From positions 1 to 64,000 of the forward strand of contig NZ_VSJK01000006.1 in assembly GCF_008085915.1 (NCBI RefSeq): a stretch of 64,000 bases of DNA, written 5' to 3'. Shown one piece after another: positions 37,684 through 63,372 of this stretch (the stretch's first letter is position 1; each line of letters begins with the position of its first letter). The DNA is from Oceaniovalibus sp. ACAM 378. GTDB lineage: Bacteria > Pseudomonadota > Alphaproteobacteria > Rhodobacterales > Rhodobacteraceae. Below the pieces are notes generated by a model that was given only the letters and a program-made list of their open reading frames with translations, was not told the DNA's origin and did no database searches. Position numbers and translations under genes: made by a program.

Positions 37684-39195
37684 TCACTCGGACCATTCCA
37701 TGCGGTTCAGGAACAGGCTTTCGTTCGATGTCGGAGCCCAGACGAGAGACTCGTTCACGCCGTAAAACACCGATGCCTGATAAAGCGGGACCAACGGGAT
37801 TTCGGTGGCGACATATTCGTGCACCTTCCCGTATTCCGCCAGCCGCGCCTCGGGGTCCAGTTCGACCCGTGCCGCTTCCAGACCTGCGTCAATTTCGGGG
37901 TCGCGCACGGCAGACCAGGACGATCCGGAATGGAGCAGCGGATAAAGCACGCCGTCAGCATCCTGACAGGCACAGGACCAGCGTCCAAAGCTCATCTCGG
38001 GGCCCTCTGAAGGCTCGCCTCGGGCCTTGCCGAGATATGTCGCCATATCCGTCATCTCGATCCGCACGTTAAGTCCGACTTCGGTCAGCATTTGCTGCAG
38101 CGCCTGCACAACGCGCTGGTCAAAAACCGGCGCAGTGGCAAATTGCAGCTCGACCTTGGCCGCGTCGCCCAATTCCTTGACCAGAGCCTTGGCCTTTTCG
38201 GGGTTATAACCGGTGCCTTCGAAGCCTTCGACCCAACCGACGTGGGCGGGGGTCAGCATCTGTTGTACCGGTTTGTCAAAGCCACCCGACAGTCCCTCGA
38301 CGATAAGATCCCGGTCGATGGCATAGGCAATCGCCTGACGCATTTTCAGATCCGACATGCTGGGACGCTGCGGGTTCAGCTTCAGATATCCAACACGCTC
38401 AGTCAGAACCGGGCGCGCCTCGACTCCGCCCGATCCGGCAAGCTGTGCGGCGAGGTCAGGATCAAGCGAGACCACGAGATCGGCAGCCCCCGATTGCAGA
38501 TCCGCGATACGGGTCGAAGCATCCGGCACGGCGCGGAAGGTTGCTGTCTCGAACGGTCCCTTGTCGCCCCAGTAATCGTCGTTGCGGTTCAGCGTCACTT
38601 CGACGCCTCGGGTCCAGGAGCCGAAACTGTATGGACCTGACCCGACGGGCGCGAGGTTGAACGCCTCGCCACCCATTTCTTCGACCACAGCGGCAGGGAC
38701 GATCGACAGCTTGGCAAGCTGCGCGAGCAGCGCCGGATAGGGCGAGGAGGTGGTCAGTTTCACATGGGTGTCGTCAAGTGCTTCGGCATTGGTGATAACG
38801 CTGAACTGGCTGATTTGCGGCGAACCGAAATCGGGATTGGTAATGCGCTTGACGGAATAAACCACATCTTCGGCCGTCAGGGGCGAACCGTCGTGAAAGG
38901 TCACGTCGTCGCGGATCGTGAAAACCATCTCGGTGTCTGCGGGGCGCTCCCATTCCGTCGCGATCTGTGGTGCAATCTCGCCGTTGTTGTCGCGGGTCAC
39001 CAGATTGTCAAAGATGTTGCGATAAACGTAATAGCTGTCGGGATTCCACTGCATGTGGGGATCCAGCGATGATGGCTCGTTCACCAGATCGATGGCCAGG
39101 TTCTGCGCATCGGCCAGGGCGGGCGCGGACATGGTGCCAAAGGCGGTTCCGGCGGCAAGGGCAAGCGCAAGAAGGCTGCGTCGCGTCGTTTTCAT
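37684..39195 (-). CDS. ABC transporter family-5 solute-binding protein
   Basis: The 503-aa periplasmic protein has a signal peptide with an RRSLL motif (MKTTRRSLLALALAAGTAFG, cleavage near PALA-DAQN). It has the canonical order: N-terminal lobe (NEPSSLDPHMQW, VTFHDGSPLTAEDVV), middle (GSGPYSFGSWTRG), and C-terminal lobe (RQAIAYAIDRDLIVEGL, then LQQMLTEVGLNVRIEMTD, and TEIPLVPLYQASVFYG). AGGAG precedes the ATG. The GntR gene overlaps its start by 4 bp. It delivers a peptide- or opine-like ligand to the DppBC-type permease. It is the in-window reference for the permuted protein at 55962. Confidence 0.94.
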   Translation of the reverse strand: MKTTRRSLLALALAAGTAFGTMSAPALADAQNLAIDLVNEPSSLDPHMQWNPDSYYVYRNIFDNLVTRDNNGEIAPQIATEWERPADTEMVFTIRDDVTFHDGSPLTAEDVVYSVKRITNPDFGSPQISQFSVITNAEALDDTHVKLTTSSPYPALLAQLAKLSIVPAAVVEEMGGEAFNLAPVGSGPYSFGSWTRGVEVTLNRNDDYWGDKGPFETATFRAVPDASTRIADLQSGAADLVVSLDPDLAAQLAGSGGVEARPVLTERVGYLKLNPQRPSMSDLKMRQAIAYAIDRDLIVEGLSGGFDKPVQQMLTPAHVGWVEGFEGTGYNPEKAKALVKELGDAAKVELQFATAPVFDQRVVQALQQMLTEVGLNVRIEMTDMATYLGKARGEPSEGPEMSFGRWSCACQDADGVLYPLLHSGSSWSAVRDPEIDAGLEAARVELDPEARLAEYGKVHEYVATEIPLVPLYQASVFYGVNESLVWAPTSNESLFLNRMEWSE

Positions 39196-51093: not shown

Positions 51094-52710
51094 CTAAGGG
51101 CTTGAGGTGGCCGCGGCCGGACCGGTTTGGAATGTCTGCAACTCGTCCTCGTCCATCTGCGCAATCAGGCCGGTTTCCCACTCCAGATAGCGACGTGCAG
51201 ACTCAAGAACGCCGCTGTGACGATCATGCACGAAAAAGAGGAAATCAATCATATCCGCATCTGTCGGCACGGAAGGTGTCGAGATGATATCCAGACCGGC
51301 AGACCGCCACTCGTCCGGGTCATGGGGCAGCAGAAGTGGCGCATCGATGCCCATTTCCACCAGATCAATTGCCGCGAGACGGGCCAGCGCCGGGTCAGAT
51401 GAGGTCAGGATCACCGGACATGCAGTATCGATCCCTTGCTGTTTCAGTCTGGGGCGAATGGCCCACTTTGCCTGCGCAATATGCCCGTTTCTGAATTCAT
51501 AGCCGGGGGAGAGGTCAAACAGTTGCGCACCATTCTTCAGGTGGGCGGCCAGTGCGGTTGCCGCGATAGCGGCAAAATCGCCGCCATTGTCCGACGCCCC
51601 GTCAGGATCGGCGCCTCTTTGCGAAAGATCGCTTTCGTCGGTGTCCAGAATATAGGCGTCGTGGCCCATTCTGCGAAGCCAGAAACAGGTGGTTGCCGCC
51701 CTCAATCCCAAGGGGTCACTCAGCACCACGCGGGCATTTCGGACGCCGATCCACAGATCTGTCGCCTGAACCAACTGTCCGCCGGGCGCATGGCAAGATC
51801 CCGGAACGTGCCCTGCGTTAAATTCCGCATCCGAGCGGGTGTCGAACAAATAGGTGGTGCGGGAGCGATCTTCGCGCCATTTCTTCAAAGTTGTTTGATC
51901 GATGACCGGCAGATCGTTGGCTTTGACAAATGCGGTGTATCGCGTCCGTGCCTGAACAAGCTCCTTCGGGCTCAGATCGGGCATTGGCGTGGCTGTCGCG
52001 CCATGATTCAGTTTGTGACCGGCCAACTGCCAGCCCTGGGTGCCATTCCTCAACGCGACGATGGGATTGCGAAATCCGAGGTTCAGCAGGGTCTGCGCGC
52101 CAATGATCGAGCGTGTCCGCCCGGCACAGTTGATGACGACGGGCATCAAGGGATCTTGCAACAAAGCGGGAAGGCGCAAGCCCAGTTCAGCGTTCGGTAA
52201 TGAAACGGCGCCGGGAATGTTCATCTTTGCGTATTCGGCAGGGGTGCGGCCATCGAAAAGGGCAATCGGCTCGCCCTCGGTCAAGCGGCGTTGCAATTCA
52301 TCGGCTGACATCGAAGGCGTGTCCATGTCATGTTCCACCAGCTCTCCAAAGGCCTTGGAGGGAACATTTACACCTTTGAACAACTGAAATCCCGCAGCGG
52401 CCCACGCCGGGGCTCCGCCTTCGAGAATCGAAACATCGCCATATCCAAGAGTTTGCAGCCGGCGGATGGCAAGCAATGCAATGCCATCGCCGTCATCCAT
52501 CAGGACAACCCGTGCCGCCGGGTTCGGGACCAGTTCAGCCGCCTTTTTCTCGATCAGGCTGTACGGGCAATTTACCGAAAAAAACGGATGTCCTTCGCCG
52601 TATTGACCGTGTTCCCGGACGTCAAGAAAGGCAATTTCCCGGGCGTCCGAAAGCATTGTCTTAACGTCGAGGGCAGAAATCTGCCGAATGGGGGGAGGGA
52701 TTACAGACAA
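51094..52710 (-). CDS. Four-domain rhodanese-like sulfurtransferase
   Basis: The 538-aa protein is built of four rhodanese-fold repeats (FLDVREHGQYGEGHP; LFDGRTPAEYAKMNIPGAV; LFDTRSDAEFNAGHVPGS; LFDLSPGYEFRNGHI). Only the second has an active-site cysteine, C195 in INCAGRTRS; the others have Asp or Ser at that point. Single-site multi-domain rhodaneses transfer sulfane sulfur. The start is a TTG (52710), because the first domain begins immediately after it. It lies 10 bp behind a thiol dioxygenase gene, so both probably work in thiol sulfur metabolism. Confidence 0.9.
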   Translation of the reverse strand: MSVIPPPIRQISALDVKTMLSDAREIAFLDVREHGQYGEGHPFFSVNCPYSLIEKKAAELVPNPAARVVLMDDGDGIALLAIRRLQTLGYGDVSILEGGAPAWAAAGFQLFKGVNVPSKAFGELVEHDMDTPSMSADELQRRLTEGEPIALFDGRTPAEYAKMNIPGAVSLPNAELGLRLPALLQDPLMPVVINCAGRTRSIIGAQTLLNLGFRNPIVALRNGTQGWQLAGHKLNHGATATPMPDLSPKELVQARTRYTAFVKANDLPVIDQTTLKKWREDRSRTTYLFDTRSDAEFNAGHVPGSCHAPGGQLVQATDLWIGVRNARVVLSDPLGLRAATTCFWLRRMGHDAYILDTDESDLSQRGADPDGASDNGGDFAAIAATALAAHLKNGAQLFDLSPGYEFRNGHIAQAKWAIRPRLKQQGIDTACPVILTSSDPALARLAAIDLVEMGIDAPLLLPHDPDEWRSAGLDIISTPSVPTDADMIDFLFFVHDRHSGVLESARRYLEWETGLIAQMDEDELQTFQTGPAAATSSP

Positions 52711-52720
52711 TGCAATTCGC

Positions 52721-53293
52721 TCAGCGTGTTTTGACGCCGATGTCCATCTGATGACAGGTTCCGGCCTCCAGATCGTACATGGTTCGGCCGGTCAGGGTTT
52801 CGAGGGGGCGGCCATACATATGCAGATGGCGGATCACCTCATCGCCTCGGATTTCGACCTGATGAATGTCTTCTGCCATCAGTGCGATACCTGAACCCGG
52901 CTCGATCGAAACCTCGCGGGTTTCCGTAAGCTTCGCACGGCCCGGTTCCGATCCGTCATCGTCGCGCTTGAAAACCTTATTGTGCTCAACCCCGACAACG
53001 GCAGCAACGCAGGCCCAGGTCGTGTGGTCATGGGGCGGGATCTTTTTGCCCGGCCGCATGACGTTCAGATACAGGGACAATCCTTGAGGGGAGTCCTGAG
53101 TGATCAGATAACGCACCTGCTTTTCGTCTTCGGCAGGGTCGGGAAAGTGCTCATCCGACCAAAGCGTGCTCTGCCCGGCCAATCCGATCAGCGCCTCTTT
53201 GACCTGTTCCAGACGGGAACGGTCAACGCCTGCTGCCAGAATTGAACGAACTTGTGTAAGCGTTGCCTCGACGGCCGCGTTCTGAGTGCTCAT
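52721..53293 (-). CDS. Cysteine dioxygenase-family thiol dioxygenase
   Basis: The 190-aa cupin has iron ligands H88 and H90 in PPHDHTTWACVAAVVG and H144 in EDIHQVEI, the three-histidine site of cysteine/thiol dioxygenases. These oxidise a thiol to a sulfinate with O2. The variant context (VVGVEHNKVFKR) resembles the CDO group found in alphaproteobacteria rather than animal CDO. Cysteine or 3-mercaptopropionate are the likely substrates. It is co-transcribed with the rhodanese gene. Confidence 0.85.
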   Translation of the reverse strand: MSTQNAAVEATLTQVRSILAAGVDRSRLEQVKEALIGLAGQSTLWSDEHFPDPAEDEKQVRYLITQDSPQGLSLYLNVMRPGKKIPPHDHTTWACVAAVVGVEHNKVFKRDDDGSEPGRAKLTETREVSIEPGSGIALMAEDIHQVEIRGDEVIRHLHMYGRPLETLTGRTMYDLEAGTCHQMDIGVKTR

Positions 53294-54871: not shown

Positions 54872-55729
54872 TCACTCTTCGCGCAAATGCTCGACGATCA
54901 GATCGAACATGTCACGGATGTGCGATGCGGGGTCGACGGCTGACCGATGGAGATAATAGTGCACATCGGGCAGCGGGGGCAGCCCGTCCTGTTCGGTCAG
55001 GATCGTGGTGTTGCCAAACAGGCGGCTTTTGATCCGCACGGTCACGCCGATCCCTGCGGCGACAGCCAGACGGATCCCTGCCAGCGACGGAGAGGTCACG
55101 CGTTCGCTATAAGAATGGCCGGACAGATCAAGTGCGCTCAGGGCGATCCGGCGGAACATGCTGGGTTCGTCTGACAGAACAAGAGGCAGCGGGCGGGACA
55201 TATCCGCGACCCAGTTTTCCCGGGCAATCCAATGTACGGAACGCTTGATCAGGAAGGCACTGTGATAGGCGTCGGTCCGCCTTGTGCTCAGGGTCATATC
55301 CAACTGGCCGCTTTCCAGCATCTCCATCAGATCAGGGCTGCGGGCGACACGAATATCCAGCCTGACATTCGGCCATTTGCGTGCATAGGCCGAAATGACC
55401 GGCGGCAGAAGATCTTCGGCCACCTCCAACGGCGCGCCAAGCGTGATGAAATCGGCCTTGGCACCCTTGTTGGCAGCGGCGATTGCATGGTTGCAACGGG
55501 CGATGATCTCGCGGCTGTTTTGCAGCAACGACAGGCCTTCTTCGGTCAGTTCACGTTTGCGACCCCGCTTGCGAAACAAAGGCGACCCGACGACTTCTTC
55601 CAGGCTGTGCATTTGCTGGGTGATTGCCGATTGGGTCCGGCCCATATGATCGCCTGCGGCTGTGAACCCGCCCTTGTCCGCAATCGCGATCAACGTCCTC
55701 AGATGGTTGAGTTGCAGATTGTTGATCAT
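54872..55729 (-). CDS. LysR-family regulator of the peptide ABC operon
   Basis: The 285-aa protein has the LysR winged helix (LRTLIAIADKGGFTAAGDHM, TQSAITQQMHSLEEVVG) and an effector domain (ADFITLGAPLEVAEDLLPP). It diverges from the peptide ABC operon at 55962 across a 232-bp region and converges on fahA with only 7 bp between. It most likely activates the ABC operon. Confidence 0.92.
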   Translation of the reverse strand: MINNLQLNHLRTLIAIADKGGFTAAGDHMGRTQSAITQQMHSLEEVVGSPLFRKRGRKRELTEEGLSLLQNSREIIARCNHAIAAANKGAKADFITLGAPLEVAEDLLPPVISAYARKWPNVRLDIRVARSPDLMEMLESGQLDMTLSTRRTDAYHSAFLIKRSVHWIARENWVADMSRPLPLVLSDEPSMFRRIALSALDLSGHSYSERVTSPSLAGIRLAVAAGIGVTVRIKSRLFGNTTILTEQDGLPPLPDVHYYLHRSAVDPASHIRDMFDLIVEHLREE

Positions 55730-55961
55730 GCCGCATTGCCCCTTTGTGCTCTGCTGGCGTCAGCGCCGGTCCCTCTTAACGGGATCGCTAATGTGTCGGC
55801 AACTATTATTAATTTTTCATCGAGTTTTGGATTGATACAGTCTCACCATCAGCCCGGCCCGACGCATTGCAGCGATTTGCACTTGAGCAATTTTGTGTTG
55901 CGCGTTGGCTGGGACCGAAAGGAAAGATCGCCGCGAAGGCAGCACCAAGGGAGGAATTGTC

Positions 55962-57587
55962 TTGAAATTTGCAATTAAAACAGTCGCAGCAGGGGCCATC
56001 GGTACGACCAGCCTGTTATGCGCGACCATGGCCATGTCTCAGGAAAAGCTGGGTGAAATCGTTCCCGAGCTGTCCTTGTCATACTATGCCGCCGACATGG
56101 GCCCGGTGTATGAGCAATCTGCACGGGTGCTGTCGCAGGAGTGGGCCAAACTGGGCCTGAAGTTCCAGATGCGCCCGATTCAGTTCAGCACCTTCGTGTC
56201 TGACATCATCGTTGGCGGCAAACTGGAAGATATGGCGGTGTTCAGTGTTGGCGCCGATCCGGATCGGATCGATCCGACGTTTTACCTGAACAACATCAGC
56301 GCCTGCGGTCAGCGCGCCAACGGATCAAGCTGGTGTGACGACGAATATACCAAGATGGCGGAAAAGCAGCTGACGCTGGTGGATTCCGATGAGCGCCTGA
56401 AAACCGTTCACGCGATGCAAGAGCGGTTCCAGTCGCAGATTCCGTGGTGGCCGGTCACGAACACGGTCTATGGCATTCTCTATAACAGCGACAAATGGGA
56501 AAACGTGACCAATCCGTCTCCTGTCGCCGCCCACGAAAATCTGGTTGACCCATGGCTGGCCGCGCGGCCGCTGACCGATGACCGTATTCTGGACTGGGCC
56601 TATCTGGAGGATGTCAGCACCTATAACCCGATGTCCGAAGAGGGCGCGACAGGCTGGATGCGGTTTGTCTATGATACCTTCGCCAAAATTGGTGCCGACG
56701 GTGAATCCCGCCCTTGGGCTGCGGAATCGTGGGAGTTTACCGATGACACCACGGTCAGGGTCAAACTGCGCGAAGATATGACCTTTCACGATGGCGAAGC
56801 GGTGAACGCGGATGACGCGGTTTTCACCATCAACAAGATCGTCGAGATCCAGCCGCCCACCATGTCGTCGCGGATCGGTAATATCGCCGGGGCGACCAAG
56901 ATCGACGACTATACCTTCGAGTTCAATCTCAAAAAGCCCGACGCGACCTTTGAGACCATCGCCCTGACCTATCTCTTTATCCTGCCCGAACATCTGTGGG
57001 CGGATTACGAGGGCGATATGGCCAACCGCGATGTGATCGCCGACGGCGTGGCAATCGGCAGTGGCCCGTTCATGTTCAAGGAATGGCGTGTCAACGAGCT
57101 GCATGATCTGCGCACCCATACGTCGCATTTCGCCGCTCCGGCCTATGATGGCATTCGCCGTCTCGCCTTGGGACAGGCCGATGCGATCCGTGCAACCATG
57201 ATGGACGGAACCGCCGATATCGCGACAACCGTGCTGCCCGTTGCCGCAATGAGCGATCTGGGAGCACAGGAAGATTTCCTCGACTTCATCGAGATTCCTT
57301 CCCACGGCACCATGATGACCTGGCTGAACAACAAGAAAGCGCCGTTCACCGATCTTGAATTCCGCCGTGCGCTCAAGACGGCCACTGCCCGCCAGCGTGC
57401 AGCGGTTGAAGGCTGGTTGGGCTTTGCTGTTCCCGCCGGAGAAGGCAACGTTCCGCGCCAGACGGGCAAATGGTACAACTCGGATCTTGAGCCGGTTGCC
57501 TTCGATGTCGATGCGGCCCGGAAGATCCTGGAAGATGCGGGTTACGGCTGGGACGACGATGGCCGGCTGCATTATCCGGTGAACTGA
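55962..57587 (+). CDS. Circularly permuted family-5 solute-binding protein
   Basis: The 541-aa protein has a signal peptide (AGAIGTTSLLCATMAMS). Domain order is rearranged: residues about 36-180 correspond to the C-terminal lobe of ordinary family-5 binding proteins (VLSQEWAKLGLKFQMR; SQIPWWPVTNTVYG). About 205-541 correspond to their N-terminal and middle parts (VTFHDG-type MTFHDGEAVNADD; GSGPFMFKEWRVN; FRRALKTATARQR), and the chain ends at ILEDAGYGWDDDGRLHYPVN, where normal relatives would continue into the C-terminal lobe. A pair of cysteines (C115, C125) lies in the moved part. The start is taken as TTG (55962) behind GGGAGGA. It is followed by a hairpin and a complete dipeptide-type ABC set. 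It should still bind a peptide-like ligand. Confidence 0.88.
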   Translation: MKFAIKTVAAGAIGTTSLLCATMAMSQEKLGEIVPELSLSYYAADMGPVYEQSARVLSQEWAKLGLKFQMRPIQFSTFVSDIIVGGKLEDMAVFSVGADPDRIDPTFYLNNISACGQRANGSSWCDDEYTKMAEKQLTLVDSDERLKTVHAMQERFQSQIPWWPVTNTVYGILYNSDKWENVTNPSPVAAHENLVDPWLAARPLTDDRILDWAYLEDVSTYNPMSEEGATGWMRFVYDTFAKIGADGESRPWAAESWEFTDDTTVRVKLREDMTFHDGEAVNADDAVFTINKIVEIQPPTMSSRIGNIAGATKIDDYTFEFNLKKPDATFETIALTYLFILPEHLWADYEGDMANRDVIADGVAIGSGPFMFKEWRVNELHDLRTHTSHFAAPAYDGIRRLALGQADAIRATMMDGTADIATTVLPVAAMSDLGAQEDFLDFIEIPSHGTMMTWLNNKKAPFTDLEFRRALKTATARQRAAVEGWLGFAVPAGEGNVPRQTGKWYNSDLEPVAFDVDAARKILEDAGYGWDDDGRLHYPVN

Positions 57588-57625
57588 TCTTAACTCAGTG
57601 AACTGATCTGCCACAATAATACCGG

Positions 57626-57661
57626 GTGCCGCATGATCTGAAAGCAGATCCTGCGGCGCCT
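57626..57661 (+). terminator. Strong intercistronic hairpin after the permuted binding protein
   Basis: GGTGCCGCATGATCTG (57626-57641) and CAGATCCTGCGGCGCC (57646-57661) form a 16-bp stem (one G-T wobble, one mismatch) with a 4-nt AAAG loop, followed by TTTCT. It would allow partial termination or protect the binding-protein mRNA. A short direct repeat GTGAACTGATCT occurs twice just upstream (57581-57609). Confidence 0.75.
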
Positions 57662-57684
57662 TTCTCTCGCACAAGGATTTCACC

Positions 57685-58650
57685 ATGCGTGCCTATATCT
57701 TGCGTCGGCTGCTACAGTCGATGCTGGTGGTTTTTGTGGTCACGACGATCATGTTTTTCATGTTCCGCGTCATGCCTGCCGATCCCACCACGATGTTTCT
57801 GGAAGGCGGCATGACCGAAGAGGCCCGACAGGTCCTGCTGGAAGAATGGGGCCTGAATGGCACGCTCTGGGAGCAATACGTCCGGTATATGGGCAATCTA
57901 CTGACCGGCGATTTCGGGAATTCGTTCTTTTACCGCAAGCCCGCCTGGGATGTGCTTTGGCCGTTCATCATCAACACGCTTTGGATCGCTGTACCGGGTC
58001 TGTTGCTGGGGGCTGTGATCGGCTCGGGCTTGGGGATGATCGTTGGCTGGGCTCCGCGAGGCGGCAAGGTCGAGCGCAGCGGGATCCTGTTGGCGACGAT
58101 CATTCGCGGCGCGCCCAGCTTTGTTGTCGGTATCATGTTGCTCGCGATTTTCTCGAGCTGGCTGAACTGGGTGCCGGGGTATGGCATGGGTGATCCGCAG
58201 GGCGCGACAGGGCTGATGCGTTATTTGAACTGGGATTTCGCGCATCATCTGATCCTGCCGCTCTGCGCCGTTATCATTTTCTTCATACCGGAAAACCTGC
58301 TGTTGATGCGCAGCGGCGTGGTCGAAGCCCGAACCGAGGATTACATCGAACTGGTCCGCGCCAAAGGCGTGTCGGAAGGGCGTGTCGCGTGGCATGCCGG
58401 GCGCAATTCGATGCTGCCGCTTATCACCTGGCTGTTTCCCGCCCTTGCCGAAACGATCGCGGGCATCGTGGTTGTCGAGATCGTGTTCAGCTGGCCCGGT
58501 GTGGGCCGTGAACTGGTGCTGGCCGTTGTCCGGCAGGATTACCCGGTGGCGCAGGCCGCGTTCTTTTTGATGTCGATCATGATTGTTCTGGCCAATCTGG
58601 CCGCCGATCTGACCTATTCCAAGCTTGACCCCAGAGTGGTTTACAAATGA
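57685..58650 (+). CDS. Peptide-type ABC transporter permease (DppB-like)
   Basis: The 321-aa protein has YILRRLLQSMLVVFVVTTIM at the N-terminus, six membrane segments, the coupling loop YIELVRAKGVSEGRVAWHAG and the DLTYSKLDPRVVYK tail. It is the first permease of the operon, 97 bp behind the binding-protein gene. A 4-bp overlap links it to the next permease. Confidence 0.94.
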   Translation: MRAYILRRLLQSMLVVFVVTTIMFFMFRVMPADPTTMFLEGGMTEEARQVLLEEWGLNGTLWEQYVRYMGNLLTGDFGNSFFYRKPAWDVLWPFIINTLWIAVPGLLLGAVIGSGLGMIVGWAPRGGKVERSGILLATIIRGAPSFVVGIMLLAIFSSWLNWVPGYGMGDPQGATGLMRYLNWDFAHHLILPLCAVIIFFIPENLLLMRSGVVEARTEDYIELVRAKGVSEGRVAWHAGRNSMLPLITWLFPALAETIAGIVVVEIVFSWPGVGRELVLAVVRQDYPVAQAAFFLMSIMIVLANLAADLTYSKLDPRVVYK

Positions 58651-59555
58651 GCCAATCCGAAATGTACCGTGCCCCGCGGGGGCTACGGTTTCTGGCCCCG
58701 ATGCTGTCGACCTTTCGCCTTTTGCTTCGGGATCGTTTCGCTTTTTGGGGCCTGACCATCTTTGCGCTGTTCATTCTGGTTGCAATGATTGCCCCATGGA
58801 TCGCGCCCTATGATCCTTTTGCGCCGATGATGACGGAAAGTGGGCGGTTGATACGCCTGGCACCCCCGTCTGCCGAACATTGGTTGGGAACGACCGCCTT
58901 TGGCAATGACGTCTTTTCACAGCTTGTCATGGGGTCGCGCGTTGCCCTGCGGGTCGGGTTGGTGGCGGCGATTGCAGTTGGCTTCATTTCGACGCTGGTC
59001 GGGGTGATCTCGGGATATTTCGGCGGCATCATCGACGACATCCTGATGCGGATGACCGATGTGGCACTCAGCATTCCGACGCTGCCTTTTGCAATCGTTG
59101 CCGTGGGCCTGCTTGGACCGAGCATCGATAACATCATTCTGGTGATCACCCTTCTGTTCTGGCGCAATGGGGCGCGGATCATTCGATCGGTCGTCCTGAC
59201 CGAACGTGAGCGCGTGTTCGTTAAATGGGCCCGTGCTGCCGGCGCGTCCCATTTGCATATCATCCTCAGGCATATTCTGCCCAATATCCTGCGGGTCGTG
59301 TTCCTGTGGGTCACCATGTCGGTTGCCTTTGCCGTGCTTACCGAAGCCAGCCTGAGCTTTCTGGGCCTCGGCGATCCGTCGATCACCAGTTGGGGCCAGA
59401 TGCTGAACACGGCATTCGCCAGCGGCGCGTTGCGGACCGCCTGGTGGTGGGTTGCCCCGCCATCGCTGATGCTGATTACCCTGATTTCCTCGCTCTACCT
59501 GATTGGCCGCGCCTATGAGGAACAGACAAACCCCCGATTGAGGGAACGCACATGA
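58647..59555 (+). CDS. Peptide-type ABC transporter permease (DppC-like)
   Basis: The 302-aa protein has WLGTTAFGNDVFSQLVMGSR, the EAA-type loop KWARAAGASHLHIILRHILPN and six helices. Overlaps with both neighbours indicate tight co-translation. It forms the channel with the DppB-type permease. Confidence 0.94.
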   Translation: MSQSEMYRAPRGLRFLAPMLSTFRLLLRDRFAFWGLTIFALFILVAMIAPWIAPYDPFAPMMTESGRLIRLAPPSAEHWLGTTAFGNDVFSQLVMGSRVALRVGLVAAIAVGFISTLVGVISGYFGGIIDDILMRMTDVALSIPTLPFAIVAVGLLGPSIDNIILVITLLFWRNGARIIRSVVLTERERVFVKWARAAGASHLHIILRHILPNILRVVFLWVTMSVAFAVLTEASLSFLGLGDPSITSWGQMLNTAFASGALRTAWWWVAPPSLMLITLISSLYLIGRAYEEQTNPRLRERT

Positions 59556-60622
59556 GCATGACCTTCGAAGCCCTCTGCACGTCATTGGAGAGCAAACCTC
59601 CGGTCCGGTTGCAGGTGCAGGATCTGAGCGTGACCTACAGCACGTCAAAAGGGCCGGTACGGGCGGTTTCCCAGATCAATTTCGATGTCGAACCGGGCAC
59701 CAACTTTGGTCTGGTTGGCGAAAGCGGCTGTGGGAAAAGCACCGTCGTGAAATCGCTGATGCGGCTGTTGCCGGATTCGGCAAAGGTGGGCGGCAAGGTT
59801 CTTCTGGATGGCAAAGACGTGCTTGCCATGGACCGCAAAGCGCTGGCAGCCGTGCGCTGGACCCAGATTGCCTTGGTCACACAGAGCGCGATGAACTCGC
59901 TTGATCCGGTGTTCACGGTGGGGGATCAGATCGTGGAATCGATCCGCGCCCATGTGGACGTGTCCCATGCCGTCGCCTGGGCGCGGGCCGAACAGATGTT
60001 TGCGATGGTCGGGCTGCCGGCCGAACGTCTGAGAGAATATCCGCACCAGTTTTCGGGCGGGATGCGCCAGCGCGCGGTCATCGCGATGGCGTTCAGTCTC
60101 AATGCCGGCCTGCTGCTGGCTGACGAGCCGACGACGGCGCTGGACCCGATCATGCAGGATCAGATCATGTCGCGGATCCGCGATATTCAACAACGGCTTC
60201 ACCGCTCAATGGTTCTGGTGACCCATGACATCGCCGTCGTTTCGGAAACCTGCGAGACTGTGGCGATCATGTATGCGGGGCGCATCGTCGAGATGGGCCC
60301 CACCCGCGATGTTCTGAACAAGGCTTATCATCCCTATACGATGGGGCTGCAAAACGCCTTTCCAAGGATCAGGGCCAAGGGAGAGAGCAAGCCGCCGCTG
60401 ATTTCAATTTCGGGCGGGTTGCCGGATCTTCTGCATCCGCCCAAAGGCTGCCGGTTCGAGCCGCGCTGCCCATTTTCGACCGAGCGGTGCCGGGCCGAAG
60501 ATCCTGAACTGCGCCCGGTCGGAACTGTCATGGCCGCCTGTCATCACATCGACCGCGCCGAAGAGTTTCGCCGTGCCGCCCTGAAGGCAGAAACATGGCG
60601 TGTCGAGGAGGACGTGCAATGA
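59552..60622 (+). CDS. Peptide-type ABC transporter ATPase (DppD-like)
   Basis: The 356-aa ATPase has GESGCGKSTVV, FSGGMRQRAVIAMAFS, LLLADEPTTALDP and VTHDIAVV, plus the cysteine-bearing C-terminal extension (GCRFEPRCPFSTERC). It pairs with the following ATPase as a heterodimer. Confidence 0.95.
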   Translation: MSMTFEALCTSLESKPPVRLQVQDLSVTYSTSKGPVRAVSQINFDVEPGTNFGLVGESGCGKSTVVKSLMRLLPDSAKVGGKVLLDGKDVLAMDRKALAAVRWTQIALVTQSAMNSLDPVFTVGDQIVESIRAHVDVSHAVAWARAEQMFAMVGLPAERLREYPHQFSGGMRQRAVIAMAFSLNAGLLLADEPTTALDPIMQDQIMSRIRDIQQRLHRSMVLVTHDIAVVSETCETVAIMYAGRIVEMGPTRDVLNKAYHPYTMGLQNAFPRIRAKGESKPPLISISGGLPDLLHPPKGCRFEPRCPFSTERCRAEDPELRPVGTVMAACHHIDRAEEFRRAALKAETWRVEEDVQ

Positions 60623-61671
60623 GTGTCGAAACCGGCGACACGGTGATCGAAGCGCGCGATCTCAAAACCCATTTCAAGGGCCACACCGGGCTGATCTCGG
60701 CTTTGCTTGGCGGTGAATCCGAGACGGTCCACGCGCTGGATGGTGTGGATCTGCACATTGCCAAGAAAGAGATCGTCGGCATCGTCGGCGAAAGCGGCTG
60801 TGGCAAATCCACCCTTGGCATGACGCTGGTCCGCATGCACGAGCCGACAAGCGGCAATATCCTGTTCAATGGGCAGGACATCACCCATCTGAGCGGCGGC
60901 AAGTTGAAATCATACCGCGGGGCCGCCCAGATCATCTTTCAGGACCCCTACAGTTCGCTTAATCCGCGACTGACGGTGGATCAGATCATCCGCGAACCGC
61001 TTGATATCCACCGCATCGGCACCTCGGCTGAAAAGACCGAGCGTGTGGCAGAGGTTCTGTCTCGGGTCCGCATGCCGCCCGAGACGTATTTGCACCGCTA
61101 TCCATCCGATCTATCCGGCGGACAGCGTCAGCGTGTGGCAATCGCGCGGGCGCTGGTCTTGCGCCCCAAGCTGATCGTGGCGGATGAACCGGTGTCGATG
61201 CTGGACGTGTCGATTCAGGCCGGTGTGCTGGAGCTTTTGAATGTGCTGTCCAAAGAGCTTGATCTGGCGGTGTTGTATATCTCGCATGACATAGCGACCG
61301 TCGGATACATTTGTGACAGGGTGGCGGTGATGTATCTGGGGCGGGTGGTTGAAGAGGGCGGCAGTGACGATGTGATGCACACGCCGCTGCACCCCTATAC
61401 GGAACGCCTGATGGCGGCGGTGCCCAGCGTTGATACATCGGTTCCGCGTCAGCGTGTGGAATTACAGGGCGAAGTGCCCTCTCCAACCGATATTCCCGCA
61501 GGGTGCCGGTTTGCCGGGCGCTGCCCGCTTGCGGCAGAGCTGTGCCATGCGGTCGAGCCCGAACTCTACGAACCACTGCCCAACCACAGGGTGCGATGCC
61601 ATCTGTATCTCCCTGCGGACAATGACATCCCGGCCGATCTGGCGCGTCCGGAGTTTCCTGAAAACCGCTGA
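60619..61671 (+). CDS. Peptide-type ABC transporter ATPase (DppF-like)
   Basis: The 350-aa ATPase has GESGCGKSTLGMT, LSGGQRQRVAIARALV, LIVADEPVSMLDVS and YISHDIATV, with a Cys-rich tail (GCRFAGRCPLAAELC). The ATG at 60619 overlaps the preceding stop. It is the last gene of the LysR-controlled operon. Confidence 0.95.
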   Translation: MSVETGDTVIEARDLKTHFKGHTGLISALLGGESETVHALDGVDLHIAKKEIVGIVGESGCGKSTLGMTLVRMHEPTSGNILFNGQDITHLSGGKLKSYRGAAQIIFQDPYSSLNPRLTVDQIIREPLDIHRIGTSAEKTERVAEVLSRVRMPPETYLHRYPSDLSGGQRQRVAIARALVLRPKLIVADEPVSMLDVSIQAGVLELLNVLSKELDLAVLYISHDIATVGYICDRVAVMYLGRVVEEGGSDDVMHTPLHPYTERLMAAVPSVDTSVPRQRVELQGEVPSPTDIPAGCRFAGRCPLAAELCHAVEPELYEPLPNHRVRCHLYLPADNDIPADLARPEFPENR

Positions 61672-62112: not shown

Positions 62113-63372
62113 TCAGCGCGCGTAACGCGCCGCGGTGAGCCCGTCGAGAGAGATTTCCGCCGTCTTGCCCATCACCACATCAGCCACCGCGCGACCCGAG
62201 CCGCAGGCCATCGTCCAGCCCAACGTCCCGTGACCGGTGTTGACGAAAAGATTGTCGTATTTCGTCGGCCCCAGAACGGGCGTGCCATCAGGGGTCATCG
62301 GGCGCAGACCGGTCCAGCCTTCGGCCTTGGAAATATCGCCGCCTTTGGGGAAAAGATCGCCAATCACATGTTTCACCGTGTCAGTGGCATGGGGGCCAAG
62401 GCGGTTTGAATAGCCTGCGATTTCAGCCTGTCCAGCGACACGGATGCGGTCGCCCAAACGGGTGATGGCGACCTTGTGGGTTTCGTCCATGATGGTAGAT
62501 TGCGGAGCGAATGCGTCGTCGGTGACGGGGATCGTGACCGAATAGCCCTTGACCGGATAGACCGGCAGTTTGACCCCGATGGGGTTCAGCACGCGCACCG
62601 CATAGCCACCAAGCGCACAGACATAGGCATCGCCCGTGATGCGCCCGGCGACTTCGGTGTCGACGCCAACGATCTTGCCATCCTCGACAACGATCGATTT
62701 GACCGGCTGGCCGTATTGGAACCTGACCCCCATTTCGGCGCATTTTTCGGCCAGTGCGATTGTGAACATCCGGCAATCGCCGGTGCGGTCTGCGGTCAGA
62801 CGCAATCCGCCGACAAATTTATTGCGCACCTCGGCCAGTGCCGGTTCAACGGCGATACAGGCGTCGCGGCCAAGGACTTCGTAGGGAGAGTCGTATTCGG
62901 CCAGAATGTCCTGATCGGCCTTTGACGCCTTCATCTGCTTGGCGGTGCGGAAAAGCTGCAGGGTGCCTTGGGCGCGACCGTCGTATTCGATGCCGGTTTC
63001 GGCGATCAATTCGGGCATCACATCCCGCGAATAGCTGGAGATTCGCACCATGCGGCCCTTGTTGATGCGATAGCTTTCCTCGTTACAGTTCTGCACCATC
63101 GACACGCACCATTTCCACATGGTCGGGCTGATCAGCGGCCAGATGAACAGCGGGCGGCGCTTCATGAACATCCATTTGACCGCCTTCCACGGGATTCCCG
63201 GTGCGGCCCATGGCGACGTCATGCCATAGCTCAACTGGCCCGCGTTGGCATAGCTGGTCTCCAGCCCCGGCCCGGTCTGACGGTCGATAACCACGACCTC
63301 GGCACCCTGTTTCGCAAGATAGTAAGCGGTGGTGACGCCGATGACGCCCGCACCCATTACGACAACTTTCAT
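62113..63372 (-). CDS. dadA: D-amino-acid dehydrogenase
   Basis: The 419-aa flavoprotein has the FAD motif VVVMGAGVIGVTTAYYLAKQG, then GLETSYANAGQLSYGM. It ends with the DadA-type GHGTLGWTMACGSGRAVAD. It oxidises D-amino acids (mainly D-alanine) to 2-oxo acids and ammonia with electrons to the respiratory chain. It converges on the peptide ABC operon and follows another peptide ABC ATPase gene on its own strand. The racemase partner (dadX) is not visible. Confidence 0.93.
   Translation of the reverse strand: MKVVVMGAGVIGVTTAYYLAKQGAEVVVIDRQTGPGLETSYANAGQLSYGMTSPWAAPGIPWKAVKWMFMKRRPLFIWPLISPTMWKWCVSMVQNCNEESYRINKGRMVRISSYSRDVMPELIAETGIEYDGRAQGTLQLFRTAKQMKASKADQDILAEYDSPYEVLGRDACIAVEPALAEVRNKFVGGLRLTADRTGDCRMFTIALAEKCAEMGVRFQYGQPVKSIVVEDGKIVGVDTEVAGRITGDAYVCALGGYAVRVLNPIGVKLPVYPVKGYSVTIPVTDDAFAPQSTIMDETHKVAITRLGDRIRVAGQAEIAGYSNRLGPHATDTVKHVIGDLFPKGGDISKAEGWTGLRPMTPDGTPVLGPTKYDNLFVNTGHGTLGWTMACGSGRAVADVVMGKTAEISLDGLTAARYAR

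Follow-up and report, generated by a model that had tools for sequence, protein, structure and literature searches.

The gene at 55962-57587 (+) of the window, by which we mean the whole 64,000-nucleotide stretch of Oceaniovalibus sp. ACAM 378 DNA that was analysed (contig NZ_VSJK01000006.1, positions 1 to 64,000), encodes a 541-amino-acid (aa) circularly permuted family-5 (SBP_bac_5) solute-binding protein, in which the module that is normally last comes first. The evidence consists of the order of module profiles, a rotation scan, exchanged profile matches in the Protein Data Bank (PDB) and an AlphaFold2 model with structure alignment. We are highly confident that the protein is a natural circular permutant of a family-5 (cluster C) binding protein, serving a Dpp/Opp-type ATP-binding cassette (ABC) importer.

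The permutation had been proposed in a preliminary description of the window, by comparison with an ordinary family-5 protein at 37684-39195. That reference stands as an ordinary family member (PF00496 positions 1-365 of 368), but its strand, left unstated there, is minus: the plus strand is interrupted by stops and the minus strand is open over 503 aa. The frame of the permuted gene is unbroken, as had been claimed, with 541 codons open from a TTG start, and the stretches quoted in the description were located, VLSQEWAKLGLKFQMR ... IPWWPVTNTVYGI within the first third of the chain and TFHDGEAVNADDAV further on, in its second part. At a Pfam threshold of 0.001 the protein matches SBP_bac_5 only, and hence no type I sugar-binding family; residues 250-534 correspond to positions 3-284 of the 368 in PF00496, at 179.1 bits against a cut-off of 32.4. 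This profile scores over its cut-off at 31 places in the host genome (5.36 Mb, 116 contigs), where the match reaches at least profile position 333 in 30 cases and ends at 288 only in the protein of 55962-57587. Eleven NCBIfam models matched the permuted protein, their best stretch starting at residue 201 or later, and two of them reported a second stretch. Elsewhere in the host genome a 236-aa frame (G000:C15:95247-95528) carries a lone partial PF00496 match (positions 263-360) below cut-off and is possibly a fragment.

Fetched open reading frames (ORFs) were sorted by the number of residues behind the front module, fewer than 60 defining the permuted type and more than 120 the ordinary type. 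This yielded 124 permuted-type and 50 ordinary-type ORFs and no intermediate; with identical ORFs dropped, 117 permuted proteins, the window protein (P0001) among them, and 49 ordinary ones remained, and the front and back profiles were built solely from the latter. With the database size set to 1000 for E values, the back-module profile matches the N-terminal half of P0001 at E 6e-14 (residues 52-172, ORF 77-197) and the front-module profile matches behind it at E 1.5e-66, corroborating the proposal that the normally last part is placed first and the normally first part second. The same order is evident in the relatives, all 117 permuted-type proteins being back-then-front and all 49 ordinary ones front-then-back. 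Among 234 controls, one reversed and one shuffled version of each permuted ORF, 121 gave any back-module match, none of them better than E 0.84. In a later set of 62 ORFs, 55 were front-then-back, one had the front module alone and six were back-then-front, the scores of these six being equal to those of five haloarchaeal proteins fetched earlier. Three-module intermediates numbered zero among ORFs of at least 150 aa in the loci fetched (134 back-front, 104 front-back and three front alone, a count that includes overlapping loci and in which the genes are not all distinct). A separate 172-aa frame at L103:6067-6582 holds the end of the front module only and is perhaps a fragment, or else an overlapping frame.

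A search with the rotated chain, also proposed in the preliminary description, gave a corresponding result. When the chain was rotated in steps of 5 against one whole-length ordinary profile of 514 positions, the best single match of the window protein rose from 230 bits as encoded (profile 37-349) to 280 bits on rotation near residue 192 (profile 39-491), where two split profile matches merge into one. Among the 117 permuted proteins, rotation improves the best single match in 113 (the median gain being 72 bits and the smallest change -0.4); it does so in none of the 49 ordinary proteins, for which the median change is -157.5 bits. In an hhalign comparison, a profile of the N-terminal part, made from alignment A4 with 25 of 35 sequences used and 10 left out, matches the window's own ordinary protein at residues 362-483 (E 3e-6, probability 88).

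AlphaFold2 predicted one confident fold, with a mean predicted local distance difference test score (pLDDT) of 89.9; the lowest ten-residue block, at 57, comprises residues 187-196 and lies inside the new linker. The predicted fold is a two-lobed clamshell, and its two parts match the front and back of the DppA and OppA structures in exchanged order (VIA-align). A full C-terminal lobe within residues 205-541 beside a separate domain formed by the N-terminal 145 residues, the outcome which the preliminary description had set against its own proposal, did not emerge: residues 204-541 correspond to no more than roughly the first two thirds of an ordinary structure, covering 1-346 of 507 in DppA. 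The N-terminal part modelled alone matches the last third of ordinary structures and has a mean pLDDT of 66.1, as compared to 85-98 per ten-residue block for model residues 1-150 in the whole chain. Since this part matches the ordinary last third and folds less surely alone, it appears unlike a separate extra domain.

Searches of PDB sequences reveal the same exchange. Single-sequence phmmer placed query residues 241-532 on 50-340 of 5isu and query residues 42-190 on 5isu 345-491, the second piece being weak (4.7 bits for 5isu, 5.7 bits for 8upi). The N-terminal-part profile found 65 PDB sequences at E ≤0.01, and in all 60 matches listed the stretch matched was the back part of the binding protein, as in DppA 357-480 (E 1.4e-14) and OppA 373-488 (3o6p being itself a short fragment). 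No solved permuted family-5 structure was evident among the best 60 of 116 PDB matches to the permuted-family profile, since the top match (267 bits) is an ordinary protein in two exchanged pieces.

The layout of the gene can be followed along the plus strand. A likely ribosome-binding site, GGGAGG (55949-55954), read by eye, lies 7 bases 5' of the TTG start, and a likely Sec-type signal peptide, also judged by eye from the sequence, occupies residues 1-26 (55962-56039). The normally last module, comprising the later lobe 2 part and the old C-terminal strand, spans residues 37-175 (56070-56486) and is followed by the new linker (residues 176-208, 56487-56585), which connects the old C-terminus with the old N-terminus; the borders of both were drawn from the secondary structure of the AlphaFold2 model. 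The normally first module, with the old N-terminus, lobe 1 and the first lobe 2 helices, spans residues 209-541 (56586-57584), as based on the PF00496 match at 250-534, the module profiles and the structure alignment. The new C-terminus, residues 526-541 (57537-57584), ends in the loop preceding the next lobe 2 strand of ordinary relatives.

In the proposed explanation, the old termini are joined through a short linker, and new termini have opened in a loop of lobe 2, between the helix preceding AGY (residues 526-528) and the next strand. The usual clamshell would be kept and the two crossings of the chain from lobe to lobe would stay where they are, so that ligand closure and permease docking should work as in DppA/OppA, and the chain ends would relocate from lobe 1 to lobe 2. 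The group is likely to have a single origin, probably through tandem duplication of a family-5 gene in which the front of the first copy and the back of the second were lost, and would later have spread through descent and gene transfer.

The gene heads an importer operon on the plus strand, as assigned by Pfam and NCBIfam, with a DppB/OppB-type permease (57685-58650), a DppC/OppC-type permease (58647-59555) and two oligo_HPY ATPases of the DppD/OppD type (59552-60622) and the DppF/OppF type (60595-61671). A divergent LysR-type regulator gene (54872-55729, minus strand) perhaps regulates the operon, as its position suggests. Folding energy indicates a stem-loop (57624-57661, +) in the gap that separates the binding-protein gene from the first permease gene; the region 57588-57690 folds at -35.6 kcal/mol with a z of -4.82, and none of 200 shuffles was equally stable. 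Stem-loops placed after a binding-protein gene are known to serve in maintaining an excess of the binding protein. Among the 117 loci, 80 exceed 5 kb and the remaining 37 are too short for the operon count; same-strand importer genes follow downstream in 80 of the 80, with the exact permease-permease-ATPase-ATPase order and no importer genes upstream in 69 and a single permease before the contig end in one. Nonsynonymous divergence (dN) is lower than synonymous divergence (dS) in both modules in all eight pairs, dS being near or at saturation in several, and both modules are, as judged from these substitutions, under purifying selection. The conserved downstream importer genes and the excess of dS over dN therefore make it very probable that the permuted protein serves its importer as binding protein.

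For the cargo of the clade, small peptide-, amide- or hydantoin-like compounds are our guess. Ten upstream proteins of relatives, picked from 157, comprised two IclR regulators, two Asp/Glu/hydantoin racemases, one M28 and one M19 peptidase, a beta-lactamase-fold protein, a transposase, a luciferase-like protein and one without a match, and annotated neighbours in relatives include hydantoinase/oxoprolinase genes and a D-aminoacylase. Such neighbours point tentatively to compounds of the peptide, amide or hydantoin kind, without fixing what the window protein carries. A fumarylacetoacetase-type gene lies near the permuted gene both in the window and in the close relative L237, and in the window a D-amino-acid dehydrogenase gene (62113-63372, minus strand) is convergent with the importer operon and may or may not share a pathway with it; neither gene settles the cargo. 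In L237 (10188-13746) the fumarylacetoacetase-type gene is accompanied by two further FAA-hydrolase genes and a glutathione S-transferase-like gene, as in aromatic ring cleavage. Elsewhere in the window, a 190-aa protein (52721-53293, minus strand) has no Pfam match at 1e-5 and is cysteine-dioxygenase-like by eye; it adjoins a protein with three rhodanese stretches (51094-52710, minus strand), a possible thiol-oxidation pair.

The permuted protein has relatives well beyond the host genome. The closest, in four other genomes, are 63-70% identical, full-length and collinear, and further collinear relatives are 24-31% identical, some of them on records titled complete plasmid or chromosome; outside its own subgroup, members are 18-30% identical to P0001. 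Full-length collinear relatives were found in three of 40 near genomes, in 19 of 389 other genomes drawn from the order (20 loci) and in 12 of 384 drawn from the class (13 loci), two of the latter genomes being already among the near-genome finds; in the phylum draw no full-length match at 1e-25 was found in 397 other genomes, four of which gave ordinary matches only. The genome counts from the order, class and phylum draws are lower bounds, since three candidates per genome were scored. Plasmid records in which the match covers at least 80% of the query numbered 29, of which 15 are haloarchaeal and 14 alphaproteobacterial, with Neorhizobium galegae and Ketogulonicigenium vulgare among the 29, and the gene is annotated in 24 of them, always as 'ABC transporter substrate-binding protein'. 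With queries of their own kind, 10 of 111 Deinococcota genomes (two already known included; three places with one in-frame TGA) and two of 201 Chloroflexota genomes (the already known one included) gave matches. Profile-tested module order covers nine of the 29 plasmid matches, and for the other 20 and the new Deinococcota and Chloroflexota places the order rests on collinear matching. A scan for the peptide patterns PERSDPDE and [IV][YFM]NLFHS[STQ][TN] returned 174 relatives, of which 80 were kept; 79 of these loci hold a permuted-type ORF and one, L148, holds none. Most of the 80 are titled Alphaproteobacteria, and they also include three Trueperaceae (one on a 4.29-Mb record titled chromosome), one Thermomicrobiales, one Chloroflexia and two betaproteobacterial bins. 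Two loci, L004 and L061, make up a subgroup of divergent permuted proteins in which the back module is preceded by an additional N-terminal stretch and the usual C-terminus is extended by about 30 residues.

The permuted proteins also stand apart in phylogeny. In a tree of rotated whole chains, with rows thinned for similarity from 166 to 60, 26 permuted and 34 ordinary rows are cleanly apart with a Shimodaira-Hasegawa-like approximate likelihood ratio (SH-aLRT) support of 100. A tree of the front module, used to exclude an effect of the rotation (227 rows thinned to 88, the front-only ORF L227 left out), separates 22 permuted from 66 ordinary rows with a support of 90, the ordinary rows including haloarchaeal, Deinococcota and Chloroflexota proteins. 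In a careful, unrooted version of this tree the permuted rows lie on one side of a branch with support of 99/90, which is present in 99% of 200 bootstrap trees of a bootstrap that had not fully settled. On these alignments, a single origin of the permuted group is the simplest reading.

The group shares residues as well as module order. The loop GADPDRIDP (residues 97-105, 56250-56276, +) holds the clade-signature Arg102, and this column is R in 114 of the 117 permuted proteins versus one of the 49 ordinary ones; a shared Gln is present in 97% of the permuted group versus 2% of ordinary proteins. An Asp of OppA is reported to bind the amino end of the peptide (PMC5736914), and by matching, the Arg102 loop would be the loop that carries this Asp. 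The three exceptions at the Arg102 column are all haloarchaeal. One of them, in Haladaptatus (L067; NZ_CP111042.1, 5980-7713), has a DppA-like ADNGDPD loop instead of the Arg loop, and its gene lies near an annotated dipeptide epimerase and a D-aminoacylase, which makes it the best ligand lead. We lean towards the hypothesis that one ancient permutation gave rise to a separate family-5 branch marked by a distinct pocket signature, a conserved Arg next to the amino-end site of DppA/OppA, and, because of this signature, by a cargo range of its own, and that this branch spread with its whole importer across several bacterial phyla and haloarchaea, hidden under ordinary annotation.

From Pfam alone, where a single SBP_bac_5 match stops early and leaves the first 249 residues blank, one could take the protein for an ordinary family-5 member that has gained an unrelated N-terminal domain and lost its back end to truncation, encoded by a decaying gene. 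This is most improbable, since profiles, hhalign and structure alignment identify the N-terminal part itself as the missing back module; the PDB profile matches, the model of the N-terminal part and the structure alignment speak against a separate domain. Gene decay is contradicted by dN < dS, that is, by purifying selection on both modules, and the layout is kept in 117 distinct proteins, with importer genes behind it in the 80 loci examined. Any permutation could come about by the fusion of gene pieces, and the host genome is a draft of 116 contigs, so a chance fusion of 3' and 5' fragments of different binding-protein genes, either recent and private or an artefact of assembly, may be considered. 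We give it practically no credence, since the collinear full-length relatives in four genomes at 63-70% identity, and in many more at 24-31%, rule out a private event or assembly artefact.

The members have diverged widely, with 18-30% identity to P0001 beyond its own subgroup, and long branches occur in the trees, as might be expected if several independent permutations had produced a group united by shared rotation and not by descent. The front-module tree, which keeps the permuted rows on one side, and the shared Arg102 and Gln, rare among ordinary proteins, render this unlikely. It may also be speculated that the permutation serves a purpose, for example by keeping a tether or contact off lobe 1, which would be additive to the circular permutation of an importer's binding protein described above. 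With the N-terminus on the other lobe, any anchor would be relocated too, and tethering was raised as a possible reason by the authors of the TpMglB-2 study (PMC4990184). However, no lipobox is seen by eye in the window protein or in the close relative L002, so that tethering is unlikely as a general reason, and neutral fixation fits the data equally well; we hold a purpose of this kind to be doubtful, if somewhat less so than repeated permutation.

As compared to the ordinary family-5 proteins DppA, OppA and AppA (cluster C, PF00496), the permuted protein has the same two modules, a predicted fold that matches in pieces, and an operon with two permeases and two oligo_HPY ATPases, but its modules are exchanged and both ends of its chain lie in lobe 2. 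Its back-module loop is about two residues longer than that of DppA and carries Arg in most members. A change of strand order within the same superfamily is also seen in the 'domain dislocation' from type I to type II periplasmic binding proteins, an ancient strand swap inside the lobes, whereas the permuted family-5 protein is a circular shift of the whole chain. The remark in the preliminary description that such proteins are rarely or not described holds for family 5 in the literature searched, in which few subscription papers were covered and no published permuted family-5 binding protein was found. The only natural permutant of an entire binding protein to come up in that literature is of type I: TpMglB-2 (Tp0684), published as a circularly permuted glucose-binding protein with the proposed designation Type Ic / Cluster Bc and with relatives reported mostly in treponemes and Gram-positive bacteria (PMC4990184). 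TpMglB-2 resembles the window protein in being a natural circular permutation of a whole solute-binding protein that is common to its relatives, but it belongs to the sugar-binding type I class and not to family 5.

Order-dependent models such as PF00496 and those of NCBIfam report the permuted proteins as partial matches only. The proteins are ready-made permuted scaffolds for biosensors, and they provide a natural test of how the position of the chain ends relates to closure, permease docking and anchoring. Family-5 importers are a very common family, and the permuted form constitutes a widespread, conserved and apparently old group within them.
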